DNA of 64,000 nucleotides from Sulfurovum sp. TSL6 (GTDB lineage Bacteria; Campylobacterota; Campylobacteria; Campylobacterales; Sulfurovaceae), in NCBI RefSeq assembly GCF_019972115.1, contig NZ_BPFJ01000001.1, positions 62,001-126,000 of the forward strand, read 5' to 3'. The notes under the pieces were generated by a model, which was not told the origin of the DNA, ran no database searches, and saw nothing but the letters and a program-made list of their open reading frames with translations. Shown piece after piece: positions 10,824-44,131 of the stretch (its first letter is position 1; the number at the start of each line of letters is the position of its first letter). The translations under genes and the position numbers were made by a program.

Positions 10824-10833
10824 AGTGGAACGC

Positions 10834-12030
10834 ATGTTCAAAAAATCATTGACGGTTCTTCTTGTAATCGTATTGTGTTTCTCTGTACTGCAGGCAAAAG
10901 AATCATCGAAGAAAAAAGCACTTAAGAAAGAAGTATACCAAGCTGTATGGGAAAAAACGTATGGTGGAGATGACGGAGATATTGCAAATGGTATCGTAGC
11001 ACTTGAAAATGGTGAATATGCCTTGGTAGGTACATGTAAATCGTTTGGTGCACAAGGTACGGATATGTGTGTAGTACGAATGAATGGCAAGGGTGAGATA
11101 CTATGGCATATATTACTTGGCGGGAAGAAAAAAGACGTCGGTAAAGCCATAATCCGTGCAGCAGATGGCAGCCTTATCATACTTGGTACTTCCAAGTCTT
11201 TTGCAAAACACTATGATAGAGATATTTATGTCGCAAAAGTATCTTTGGAAGGCAAGCTGGTCTGGGAGAAAAGTCTTGGCGGTAAACGTGATGAATTTGC
11301 CGGAGATATAGCAAGAACAGATGATGAAGGTTTCCTGGTTGTAGGTGACAGTAACTCCTTTGGTAATGGATATAAAGATGTCTATATCGTCAAACTTGAT
11401 CAAAATGGAAAAGAGATCACATCTTATGTCATAGGTGGCGAAAAAGAAGACAGTGCCCAAGCCCTTACACGTACATCTGACGGTGCTATGATGCTTGTGG
11501 GATACCGTGAGCTTGAACGTTCTGGAAATACAGACTTTTTTGTGATGAAACTGGACCAAAACGGAAAGAAAATTTGGGCTAAAACCTATGGAGAAGAACA
11601 GGCAGACCGTTTAAATGGTGTGACAGCTACAGCAGATGGCGGTATTGTGGCAACAGGTTCAACACGTTCTTATAAAAGTGCACAAACGGATATGTCAGTC
11701 ATGAGATTAGACAATGATGGCAATATTGTATGGCATAAAATTTATGGATTTAAATATTATGAATACGGCAATGCAGTGACTGGTACAGGTGACGGATCAG
11801 TGATGGTTGCTGGAGGTACAAGTACTTTAGGAAAGGGCGATCACAGTGCCTATATGCTCGCGCTTGATCAATCGGGTAAGCTTCTCTGGTCACATGTCTA
11901 TGGGGACAGAAATAAAGATAGAATGAATGCAATTGCACGCATGGATGATGGAAGTATAGTTGCAGCCGGTGGAAGTGACAGTTATAGTAGAGCAAGTAAA
12001 TTTTATCTGTTAAAACTAGAAAAACAATAA
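10834..12030 (+). CDS. Exported seven-repeat beta-propeller-like protein (unknown)
   Basis: A 398-aa protein with a Sec signal peptide (MFKKSLTVLLVIVLCF... cleaved near LQAKES). The rest is about seven units of roughly 50 residues, each starting with a strand such as VWEKTYGG, ILWHILLGG, LVWEKSLGG, KIWAKTYGE, IVWHKIYGF or LLWSHVYGD and continuing with a 'GDGS(I/L)VxxGxTxS.. D.YVxKLDxxG' pattern. Seven such four-strand units suit a seven-bladed propeller in the periplasm or on the surface. I do not know a function. ATG 10834 is preferred over GTG 10825, which lies one base after the argB stop. It is probably the last gene of the lpxK-argB transcript. Confidence 0.75.
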   Translation: MFKKSLTVLLVIVLCFSVLQAKESSKKKALKKEVYQAVWEKTYGGDDGDIANGIVALENGEYALVGTCKSFGAQGTDMCVVRMNGKGEILWHILLGGKKKDVGKAIIRAADGSLIILGTSKSFAKHYDRDIYVAKVSLEGKLVWEKSLGGKRDEFAGDIARTDDEGFLVVGDSNSFGNGYKDVYIVKLDQNGKEITSYVIGGEKEDSAQALTRTSDGAMMLVGYRELERSGNTDFFVMKLDQNGKKIWAKTYGEEQADRLNGVTATADGGIVATGSTRSYKSAQTDMSVMRLDNDGNIVWHKIYGFKYYEYGNAVTGTGDGSVMVAGGTSTLGKGDHSAYMLALDQSGKLLWSHVYGDRNKDRMNAIARMDDGSIVAAGGSDSYSRASKFYLLKLEKQ

Positions 12031-12090
12031 AAAATTGTAAATTTTTAAAATTTTTTTAGAATTTAAGTTATTTCTCTTAGGTAAGTGTGC

Positions 12091-12096
12091 TATAAT
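12091..12096 (+). promoter_or_regulatory. -10 box for the riboswitch-like transcript
   Basis: GTGCTATAATTC, which predicts a transcript starting near 12103, a few bases before the first paired segment of the GEMM-like structure. Confidence 0.5.
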
Positions 12097-12111
12097 TCTT
12101 TCATACGGTTA

Positions 12112-12196
12112 TACTGTATTGAAAAAGCCAAGTTCATCGCGAGGTGGGTACGGAAAGTTATGGGTCTCACGTAGATCGCCAGACTACCAATAGAGA
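12112..12196 (+). ncRNA. GEMM-I / c-di-GMP-I-like riboswitch (aptamer candidate)
   Basis: The pattern matches the class I cyclic-di-GMP (GEMM) aptamer in order. P1 is UAUUG (12117-12121) with CAAUA (12188-12192). A second stem, GUUCAUC / GGUGGGU, is closed by a GCGA (GNRA) tetraloop. Next comes ACGGAAAG, against the family's ACGCAAAG. The third stem has GGUCU pairing with AGAUC, then the GCCA receptor-like loop and a final CUACC. The family pair GCC/GGY is replaced by GUU/GAC, a compensatory change. I judge this by eye; a covariance-model search would settle it. No gene begins until thrC, 250 nt downstream. Confidence 0.6.
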
Positions 12197-12216
12197 TATA
12201 AACTCATCTATCTTTT
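12192..12216 (+). terminator. Weak hairpin followed by U's: possible expression platform
   Basis: AGAGATA (12192-12198) pairs with TATCTTT (12209-12215) around a 10-nt loop and runs into T's. Its 5' arm shares bases with the outer part of the aptamer's P1, so the two structures could exclude each other, as in transcription-attenuating riboswitches. The stem is AT-rich and short. Confidence 0.3.
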
Positions 12217-12441
12217 AGAAAGTTTCATTCTTCTATTACCTGAGTATTTTAGTGTTTGTTTGTCTCTATAATTTTATTAGTTGACATTCTTTTCCCTAAA
12301 AAACATTCTTCTCCTATAATTGTAGGACAAATAGATACTAGATACTTGAGTTTACTTCATACCTATATTCCCCCTAATTTCTTATAACCCTTAGCTTATT
12401 TAGCTATAATTCTTATTAATATAAACAGTAGGATAATATAG
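12217..12441 (+). other. Gene-free leader between riboswitch-like RNA and thrC
   Basis: No ATG occurs on the plus strand before 12442. The stretch is very AT-rich and holds three more TATAAT boxes, at 12267-12272, 12315-12320 and 12405-12410. The last is well placed for thrC. Nothing else is recognisable. Confidence 0.6.
12405..12410 (+). promoter_or_regulatory. -10 box for thrC
   Basis: TTTAGCTATAATTC, 31 nt before ATG 12442, followed by a TAGGATAA ribosome-binding site. It lets thrC be expressed independently of the upstream riboswitch-like RNA. Confidence 0.5.
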
Positions 12442-40917: not shown

Positions 40918-40977
40918 CAGTTTTTTCCCTATCATGACAGTAAAATATTATTTTATGTATATGCAAAGAAAAAACTG
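40918..40977 (+). promoter_or_regulatory. 9-bp inverted repeat in the leader of the TSP3 lipoprotein
   Basis: CAGTTTTTT (40918-40926) pairs with AAAAAACTG (40969-40977) across a 42-nt AT-rich loop. It lies just before the lipoprotein start at 41000 and after a TATACT -10-like box at about 40900. The other part of this 298-nt gap is AT-rich with no ORF. Confidence 0.3.
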
Positions 40978-40999
40978 TTTTATGTATCTAGGGAAAAGA

Positions 41000-43900
41000 A
41001 TGAAAAAAGGGAAAAGAATGGGATATATAAAGGTAATTGTTGCAACTATTGCAACAATAATGGTGTTAAGCGGCTGTAATAGTAAAACAAGACCAGTGGA
41101 CTCTTGCGGAAATGAGATAGATTTTTATGCTACATATGGTATCAAGCTCAATATAGGTAGCTTAATAATTTATGATTTGGTACTTGATTCTGATGGAGAC
41201 CATATAACCAATTGTGAAGATATGGATGATGACAATGACGGTATTAGTGATGAAGAGGAAGTAGTTTCTGGAACTAATCCTGCTGACCCAAATGACCCTA
41301 TAGTGGGAGGAGATAATGACACAGATAGTGATGGTACACCAAATGGTGCAGATACAGACGATGACAATGACGGTATCAATGATTCAGATGAAAATTTAAC
41401 AGGAACCGATCCTTTAGTGGTAACACCTTCAGATACGGATAGTGATGGTGACGGTATTACCGATGCAGATGAGTCGGATGAGAATTTGACAACAGTTACG
41501 GATACAAATCCAGCAGATGGTAATCCGGATATCACTTTTTCAGATACCGATAGTGATGGTATAGATAATAAGACAGATGAAGATGATGATAATGATGGTG
41601 TCAATGATTCTGATGAAGTTACTAACGGAACAGATCCACTTAATCCAGATACTGACGGAGATGGAAAAGATGATGCAGCAGAAGGGACGACAGACACTGA
41701 TAATGACGGTGTGATCGATGCACTTGAATCTGATAGTGCAGATCAGGATAATGATACGATATCAGATGAACTTGATCCGGATAATGACAGTGATGGTGAT
41801 GGTATTTCTAATGAGAATGAAACTGCTGTAGGCACAGATCCACTTGATCCAGAGAGTACACCCGTAGATACAGATGGAGATAGTACACCTGATGCATTGG
41901 ATTCTGATGACGATAATGATGGTGTTAATGATACTGATGAAGTAATCAATGGAACCAACCCGCTTGACCCAGATACAGATGACGACGGAAAAAATGATGG
42001 AACAGAGGGGACAACCAATACAGATGGCGATGGCATGATAGATGCCGTAGAGTCTTCGATTATTGATAGCGATAGTGACGGCGTAGTTGATGAATTGGAT
42101 GCTGAGAACAGTAACCCTAATAATGACAGTGATGGTGATAATTATTCTAATAGTGTTGAAACAAATGCAGGAAGTGATCCATTAAATCCAGATATTACTC
42201 CTGATGATCTTGATGGTGATGGTATACCGAATGGATCTGATGATGATATAGATGGAGATGGTCTTTTAAACAGTGATGAAACTGATACATATCTTACTGA
42301 TCCATATGATGCAGATACTGACGGTGATGGCATGTATGATGGTGACGAACTTATTATCGGTACAGACCCGCTTGATGCAGACAGTGATGATGATGGTAAG
42401 AGTGACGGAGCTGAAGGTACGACAGATACAGATGGTGATGGCATCATCGATGCATTGGAATCAGATGATCTGGACAACGACAGTGATGGTGTTGTAGATG
42501 AGCTGGATGCTGTAAACAACGGAGATAATGACAGTGATGGTGACGGGATTACAAACCAAGAGGAGACTATAGCAGGTATAGACCCGCTTGATGTAGACAG
42601 TGATGATGACGGTGTACATGACGGTGCAGAAGTCACCAATGGTACAGACCCGCTTGATGCAGACAGTGATGATGATGGTAAGAGTGATGGAGATGAAGGC
42701 ACGATAGATACAGATGGTGATGGTATCATCGATGCACTTGACTCTGCTATTGCAGACAGTGACAGTGATGGTGTTGTAGATGAGCTGGATGCTGTAAACA
42801 ACGGAGATAATGACAGTGATGGTGACGGGATTACAAACCAAGAGGAGACTATAGTAGGTATAGACCCGCTTGATGTAGACAGTGATGATGACGGTGTACA
42901 TGACGGTGCAGAAGTCACCAATGGTACAGATCCACTTGATGCAGACAGTGATGATGATGGTAAGAGTGATGGAGATGAAGGCACGATAGATACAGATGGT
43001 GACGGTATCATCGATGCACTTGACTCTGCCATTGCAGACAGTGATAGTGATGGTGTTGTAGATGAGCTGGATGCTGTAAACAACGGAGATAATGACAGTG
43101 ATGGCGATAATTATTCAAATGGTGATGAAACAGCGGCGGGGAGTGATCCTCTTGACGTAGACAGTATTCCTTCCGATATGGATGGTGATGGTATATCAGA
43201 TGAAACAGATACTGATAGAGACGGAGATGGCGTTTTAAATAGTGATGAAAATATCAATGGAACCAACCCTAATGATCCGGATACTGATGACGACGGAAAA
43301 AATGACGGAGAGGAAGGTGTGACTGATACAGACGAAGACACTATCATCGATGCATTAGAATCAGATGATCTAGATAGTGACAATGATGGCGTAGTGGATG
43401 AGCTGGATGCCGTTGATGGGGATAATGATACGGACAGTGACGGTATCTCTAATGTAAATGAAACCATCAATGGTACAGACCCTCTGAAAGCTGACAGTGA
43501 TGATGACGGTAAGGTTGATGGAGTGGAGGGGACAACAGATACAGATAGCGATGGTCTTATAGATGCGGTTGAATCATCTATTGATGACAGTGACAATGAT
43601 GGTGTTGTAGATGAGCTCGATGCTCAAAACAGTAACCCAGACAATGATAGTGACGGTGATGGTCTTTCAAATTCACAGGAGGCTATAGCAGGTACAGATC
43701 CGCTTGATACAGACAGTGATGATGATGGTGTGAATGATGGAGCTGAAGTCATTAATGGTACAGATCCTCTAAAAGCTGACAGTGATGATGATGGTAAAGA
43801 TGATGGTGTAGAGGGAACGACAGATACAGACAGTGATGGTATCATCGATGCATTGGAATCAGATGATCTTGATAGTGACAGTGACGGTGTCGTGAATGAA

Positions 43901-44131
43901 TTGGATGCCCAAAACAGTAACCCTGACAATGACAGTGACGGTGACGGTCTTTCAAATATTGATGAAATAACAGCAAATCCATATGTTACAGATCCTCTGA
44001 ATCCAGATACAGATGGTGATGAACAAACAGATGGTGCTGAAGTCAATAATGGTACTGATCCTACAGATGAGAATTCTTATACAACTTGTTCTATATTCAA
44101 TCCTATGTGTTGGATGAGTTTTTTCTTTTAG
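41000..44131 (+). CDS. Thrombospondin type 3 (TSP3) calcium-binding repeat lipoprotein
   Basis: A 1043-aa protein. The signal peptide ([20 protein letters not shown]...) ends in a VLSGC lipobox, so it should be lipid-anchored. Almost all the rest is Asp-rich TSP3-like repeat (D.DGDG...N..E...GTDP.D.DSDDDG), which folds around many calcium ions. Two adjacent 94-residue units (from about 42542 and 42824) are nearly identical. The C terminus has an odd tail, [19 protein letters not shown] 41018 is an alternative start with the same upstream signal; the ATG at 40934 lies before the signal peptide. The gene stands alone; surface adhesion or biofilm is a guess. Confidence 0.85.
42542..43105 (+). 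repeat. Two near-identical 282-bp tandem units in the TSP3 gene
   Basis: The unit beginning GACGGGATTACAAACCAAGA at 42542 recurs at 42824, a 282-bp (94-residue) period. Differences are few, for example GCAGG versus GTAGG, GACCCG versus GATCCA and GGTGATGG versus GGTGACGG. A third copy starts at about 43106 but diverges quickly. This points to a recent in-frame duplication. Confidence 0.85.

Follow-up and report, generated by a model that had tools for sequence, protein, structure and literature searches.

The stretch of DNA analysed here, 64 kb long, from the sulfur-oxidising bacterium Sulfurovum and referred to as the window, carries a c-di-GMP-I (GEMM-I) riboswitch aptamer between a DUF5122 beta-propeller gene (10825-12030, about 400 aa) and thrC. 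No protein gene is attached to the aptamer, in agreement with the preliminary description of the locus. A cmscan search against Rfam gave it as the sole match within the window (RF01051, 12117-12191, + strand, 48.3 bits, E 2.3e-6; the gathering score of the family is 35 bits). The features of the locus, along with one candidate target elsewhere in the window, are as follows.

12088-12096, + strand: extended -10 element TGCTATAAT of the ncRNA, a putative promoter read from the sequence
12103-12119, + strand: 5′ hairpin P0 (ATACGG 12103-12108 / CTGTAT 12114-12119), placed where transcription presumably starts
12117-12192, + strand: c-di-GMP-I aptamer with P1, identified by the RF01051 score and covariation
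12189-12237, + strand: stem-loop PA, outer stem AATAGA 12189-12194 / TCTATT 12232-12237
12242-12347, + strand: 3′ domain of ~105 nt, a long hairpin of about 40 pairs in the window (model R2, 103 bits)
12280-12299, + strand: apical loop GTTGACATTCTTTTCCCTAA with core ACATTCTTTT(T)CC, whose reverse complement reads as Shine-Dalgarno, spacer and ATG (AGGGAAAAGAATG)
12405-12410, + strand: -10 box of thrC (TATAAT), separate from the RNA and kept in RNA-less relatives
40990-41020, + strand: candidate target, two tandem 13-nt exact loop complements (AGGGAAAAGAATG) in the start region of a TSP3 lipoprotein gene; predicted pairing

The preliminary description had called the aptamer from the letters and had proposed, as checks, covariance searches with RF01051 and the c-di-GMP-I variant models and a comparison of the paired bases and of the whole locus in relatives. 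The RF01051 score lies well on the family side of the threshold, and the P1 stem (TATTG 12117-12121 / CAATA 12188-12192) and the GNRA tetraloop capping P2 (GCGA in the window) are both present as described. Across 45 related copies, 98.6% of the cells of the aptamer pairs are paired and 13 of the 19 pairs show double changes, against 29-54% paired in slid controls. Judged by score and covariation, the c-di-GMP-I aptamer at 12117-12191 is genuine. The same description took it for a variant because of the ACGGAAAG block, and this part did not hold. The block is one side of a compensated pair flip from the consensus G21-C46 to C21-G46. It may be noted that C21-G46 replaces the Rfam consensus in 45 of 45 Sulfurovum-type aptamers (alignment A1, columns 18-43), and since the exchange is invariant it does not mark a new ligand pocket. 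The equivalents of G20, A47 and C92, the positions that touch c-di-GMP in the Vc2 structure, are retained here and in almost all of the aligned copies (read as G at model position 11, the first A past the 36-37 pair and the C that opens ACC). With the change compensated and genus-wide and the contact positions unaltered, the reading as a ligand variant is rejected. The variant-model search did return a match to c-di-GMP-I-GGC (RF03167, same clan; 52.2 bits at 12118-12192), but this is under its cut-off of 59 and the G47 that defines that family is an A here, so the window aptamer is not assigned to it. One relative (L060) exceeds this score with 60.7 bits.

On the 5′ side, a -10 box had been claimed for the RNA, and the extended -10 element can be read there as claimed. 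The consensus promoter scan did not call it in the window because it has no -35; in the relatives a -10-like hexamer keeps its position just 5′ of the P0 hairpin. P0 is paired in 98.8% of cells over 27 loci, is found even where the aptamer has been deleted (L114/L154), and overlaps with its 3′ strand the 5′ strand of P1. On the other side of the aptamer, the outer stem of PA, with 95.7% of cells paired in the same 27 loci, is built in part from the 3′ strand of P1, and P1 and PA exclude each other. PA also encloses an inner hairpin at about 12200-12225, and its own 3′ side is U-rich. Taken together, the outer stems of P0, P1 and PA have 96.5% of cells paired in the 27 loci compared to 28-46% in slid controls, and the folding model places the state with P1 and the aptamer 1.4-9.1 kcal/mol above the state with P0 and PA in the 27 sequences. 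As for the weak hairpin with U residues reported right after the aptamer, a hairpin is there and it is weak, but the terminator search called none in the window; PA was called as a terminator in one relative (L063).

Beyond this point, 225 nt without ATG had been described, with an RNA end implied at about 12216. An ATG is indeed lacking between the aptamer and thrC, but the stretch is not empty. An alignment of thrC-upstream loci revealed it to be a conserved, structured continuation of the RNA, which through its 3′ hairpin extends to about 12350. Compared to dinucleotide shuffles, this hairpin is much more stable (mean MFE z -4.8 for 26 distinct sequences). In 27 of 27 cases the + strand folds better than the - strand, and the hairpin contains 4-9 G-U pairs. 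Therefore, it is selected as RNA, and the reading of the 3′ domain as a DNA palindrome is ruled out by the strand preference and the use of G-U pairs. The apical loop has a mean unpaired probability of 0.72 in the folding model. Its core is invariant in all 27 aligned loci save for a one-base indel that separates two clades (4-U versus 5-U loop), and this indel along with the missing ATG also led us to reject a small ORF within the 225 nt. Most of the stem sequence has changed in the most distant carrier (L095), and its pairing is preserved.

An aptamer-model search found the aptamer before thrC in 15 named relatives. Using a model of the 3′ domain, we obtained exactly one match in each of 28 of the 78 Sulfurovum genomes, and each time it lies upstream of thrC, so the locus is conserved in related genomes. 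The domain also occurs in a single genome outside Sulfurovum, from another genus of the family (G300), and is absent from all others of the 200 genomes sampled across the order. An aptamer-model match lies directly upstream of it in 27 of the 28 genomes, sound in 26 and decayed in one. At L151 the decayed aptamer scores 34.5 bits and has lost G20 and further conserved positions, and the loop and hairpin are intact. At L154 (same genome record as L114) the promoter, P0 and the 3′ domain are joined directly, the aptamer and PA being deleted. The reverse case, an aptamer kept while the 3′ domain is lost, was not seen for this locus. As the aptamer has been deleted in one case and has decayed in another while the 3′ domain stays, the 3′ domain is the lasting part of the RNA; a control element can vanish or decay while the part that it controls persists, as at these two loci. 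The aptamer, the conservation of the 3′ hairpin as RNA rather than DNA, the linkage of the two, their separability and the independence from thrC (see below) can be held with high confidence.

The aptamer is one of many in this genus. The genome of the window (G000) has 17 c-di-GMP-I aptamers in 2.25 Mb, among which the present one ranks 14th. They (L001-L017) include three tandem pairs (L001/L002, L005/L008 and L007/L017) and mostly lie upstream of genes for lipoprotein-like, exported or PAS-domain proteins. In a first search, at least one such aptamer was found in 35 of 37 Sulfurovum genomes, with a maximum of 21 per genome, and in 2 of 23 genomes of other genera of the order. Intrinsic terminators were mostly not found behind the other cis copies, so these copies do not settle the direction of control. 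Two aptamers at L022 (1501-1578 and 2479-2553) lie upstream of genes for response-regulator-like and exported-protein-like products; both have the same 5′ hairpin, in both a PA-like helix precedes U-runs, and they are possibly cis relatives of the control element of the ncRNA.

We read the locus as a free-standing ncRNA of ~250 nt under the control of c-di-GMP, in which a 5′ control element is followed by a 3′ hairpin as the product, and we give this reading a probability of about 0.6. The control element would comprise P0, the aptamer and PA, and the product would be the long hairpin that presents the invariant pyrimidine-rich loop. Binding of c-di-GMP would stabilise P1, the bases of which are also used by P0 and by the outer stem of PA. 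The ligand would then decide whether PA forms and would by this govern the synthesis, completion or release of the 3′ domain, be it by termination, folding or processing; control by such a choice between P1 and PA is probable. A c-di-GMP riboswitch is known with a Kd of ~1 nM (PMC3627812), and binding of this strength could cover the calculated energy gap. An ON response to c-di-GMP is slightly favoured, because in the cis copies at L022 a PA-like helix precedes a U-run and would be opened by the formation of P1.

What the product may do is suggested by the loop. Its reverse complement, TTAGGGAAAAGAATGTCAAC, resembles a Shine-Dalgarno sequence, a spacer and a start codon. Exact 13-nt complements of the 4-U loop, other than the RNA itself, occur at 27 sites in the 17 genomes with a 4-U loop, compared to 12 sites in 50 RNA-less genomes and 4 sites in 11 genomes with a 5-U loop. 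The rate test gave p 1e-8, or 3e-6 with the five closest genomes collapsed, it being a post hoc test in which the 4-U carriers are one clade. The reversed pattern used as a control showed no difference (3 sites in 17 genomes versus 5 in 50, p 0.33). On a hand count, about 23 of the 27 sites in 4-U genomes are at ORF starts, as opposed to 4 of the 12 in RNA-less genomes. The genes concerned mostly encode proteins with signal-peptide-like N-termini (an outer-membrane protein, lipoproteins, an MlaC-like protein and a TSP3-repeat lipoprotein), the labels other than TSP3 having been assigned by reading the N-termini. The TSP3 lipoprotein of the window (40934-44131) has 1065 aa with 17 TSP3_bac repeats, and in its start region the AGGGAAAAGAATG site is repeated as an 18-nt tandem duplication. 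In the genome of the window, the only one so counted, the matching spacer AAAGA is the commonest of all spacers in AGGGA-N5-ATG sites (5 of 83, every other spacer at most 2). The enrichment at start sites and the spacer count are suggestive of an antisense role. It may be noted that the 4-U loop genomes form a clade, and a lineage-specific habit of ribosome binding sites could mimic the enrichment. In such a role the loop would pair with the Shine-Dalgarno and start codon regions of mRNAs, largely those of exported and outer-membrane proteins, and would block their translation. Judged by the complement sites, this pairing and block may occur, at something short of an even chance. The whole proposal of a c-di-GMP-gated antisense sRNA, the loop of which acts as a generic complement of Shine-Dalgarno sequence and start codon and represses the mRNAs of a set of envelope proteins in trans, is more tentative still.

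We also considered a single conserved target. With up to 3 mismatches, TTAGGGAAAAGAATGTCAAC has one other match in its own genome. This match coincides exactly with the start of P0003, a 185-aa gene that is present in 65 of the 78 Sulfurovum genomes. P0003 has no match in Pfam, NCBIfam, PHROGs or the PDB sequences, and its AlphaFold model (mean pLDDT 69.5) gave no significant Foldseek match. The 185-aa family is highly conserved in Sulfurovum (L156:1513-2067; L173, L174, L175, L177, L185 and L194). In six RNA-less genomes P0003 is immediately preceded by a cis c-di-GMP-I aptamer, which was not found there in any of 25 RNA carriers, and the P0003 start carries the loop complement in several RNA-carrying genomes. 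Across the carriers the P0003 start drifts while the loop hardly varies, strong pairing being confined to some members of the 4-U clade, so that the loop needs an explanation beyond P0003. Pairing in genomes with and without the RNA differs with p 0.05 by a statistic that ignores phylogeny, and P0003 as the one conserved target is not supported across the clade.

The enrichment at start sites would be a coincidence if the 3′ domain instead binds or titrates a protein in amounts set by c-di-GMP, comparable to the ANTAR elements that titrate EutV. This is a serious rival, albeit an unlikely one. An invariant loop on a freely changing stem is typical of a protein-binding hairpin, and the known riboswitch-controlled sRNAs EutX and Rli55 act by protein sequestration (PMC7602753); there is no candidate protein, and a duplicated hairpin was not seen.

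The deleted and decayed aptamers bear on another possibility, that the RNA is a c-di-GMP sponge or reservoir in which the 3′ hairpin only stabilises the transcript. The model for this is merRNA of Bdellovibrio, which is 445 nt long, contains a c-di-GMP riboswitch, lacks a conserved downstream ORF, as does the Sulfurovum RNA, and is proposed to store c-di-GMP (PMC3627812). The stand-alone architecture is shared. However, merRNA was not found outside Bdellovibrio, and the Sulfurovum RNA differs in that its 3′ domain with the loop outlives the aptamer, at L114/L154 and at L151. Also, a mere stabilising stem would need no invariant loop, and the 16 other aptamers in the same genome could act as a sink. 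We consider a sponge improbable.

A separate promoter of thrC had been claimed, and the TATAAT box is backed by the RNA-less close relatives L051-L053, in which argB is followed after 78 nt by thrC with the same promoter. The RNA sits 3′ of argB wherever the flanking sequence includes argB. The next gene is thrC in 25 of 29 loci, and the DUF5122 beta-propeller gene intervenes in 4; in the window and in L145 it is located upstream of the RNA instead. Between argB and thrC, this gene may be missing or may lie on either side of the RNA, depending on the Sulfurovum genome. As the RNA-less relatives keep the thrC promoter, the RNA is not a thrC leader, and by sequence it is not the 5′ UTR of a gene that it would control. 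An ordinary cis riboswitch, in which a long 5′ leader would act by read-through on thrC or the beta-propeller gene, might be argued from the constant nearness of thrC, the lack of a strong terminator call in the window and a distance of 244-250 nt that is close to the 36 to about 234 nt of other cis copies in the genome, but with the promoter kept without the RNA, either gene found next to it, and a gap of varying length and unconserved sequence, this is the least probable reading. Of the two options left by the preliminary description, thrC read-through is thus disfavoured and the guess of a stand-alone ligand-sensing RNA is supported.

In fold, conserved positions and score the aptamer agrees with RF01051; the ncRNA locus departs from that family in heading a conserved ncRNA domain and not a regulated ORF, and in the C21-G46 pair. 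The nearest parallels are EutX and Rli55, which are trans-acting sRNAs under B12 riboswitches (PMC7602753). As with them, a 5′ riboswitch would control a stand-alone regulatory RNA, aptamer and conserved, separable ncRNA domain being located in one unit that is predicted to be a single transcript, and an analogy to them is the best reading. They differ in ligand (B12) and phylum, and they contain ANTAR elements where the Sulfurovum RNA has one long hairpin with a loop complementary to ribosome binding sites; the switching step in Sulfurovum is a predicted one. A survey of gene-antisense riboswitches lists many c-di-GMP cases, which are cis-antisense predictions (PMC9943018). In a search of the literature outside subscription journals, we came across neither an account of a c-di-GMP-I aptamer that is linked to a conserved, separable ncRNA domain nor a paper naming a riboswitch and Sulfurovum together with c-di-GMP.

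Riboswitches that control an ncRNA instead of a gene are rare, the clear examples in our literature search being the B12-controlled EutX and Rli55, and merRNA is the sole stand-alone c-di-GMP RNA that it returned. The density of aptamers in the genome of the window extends dense use of c-di-GMP-I riboswitches to the Campylobacterota. An RNA present once per genome, with aptamers deleted or decayed in some of its carriers, offers a natural system in which to follow how a second messenger may come to control a trans-acting RNA. If the antisense reading is true, one riboswitch would control a set of envelope mRNAs in trans, and not one gene in cis.
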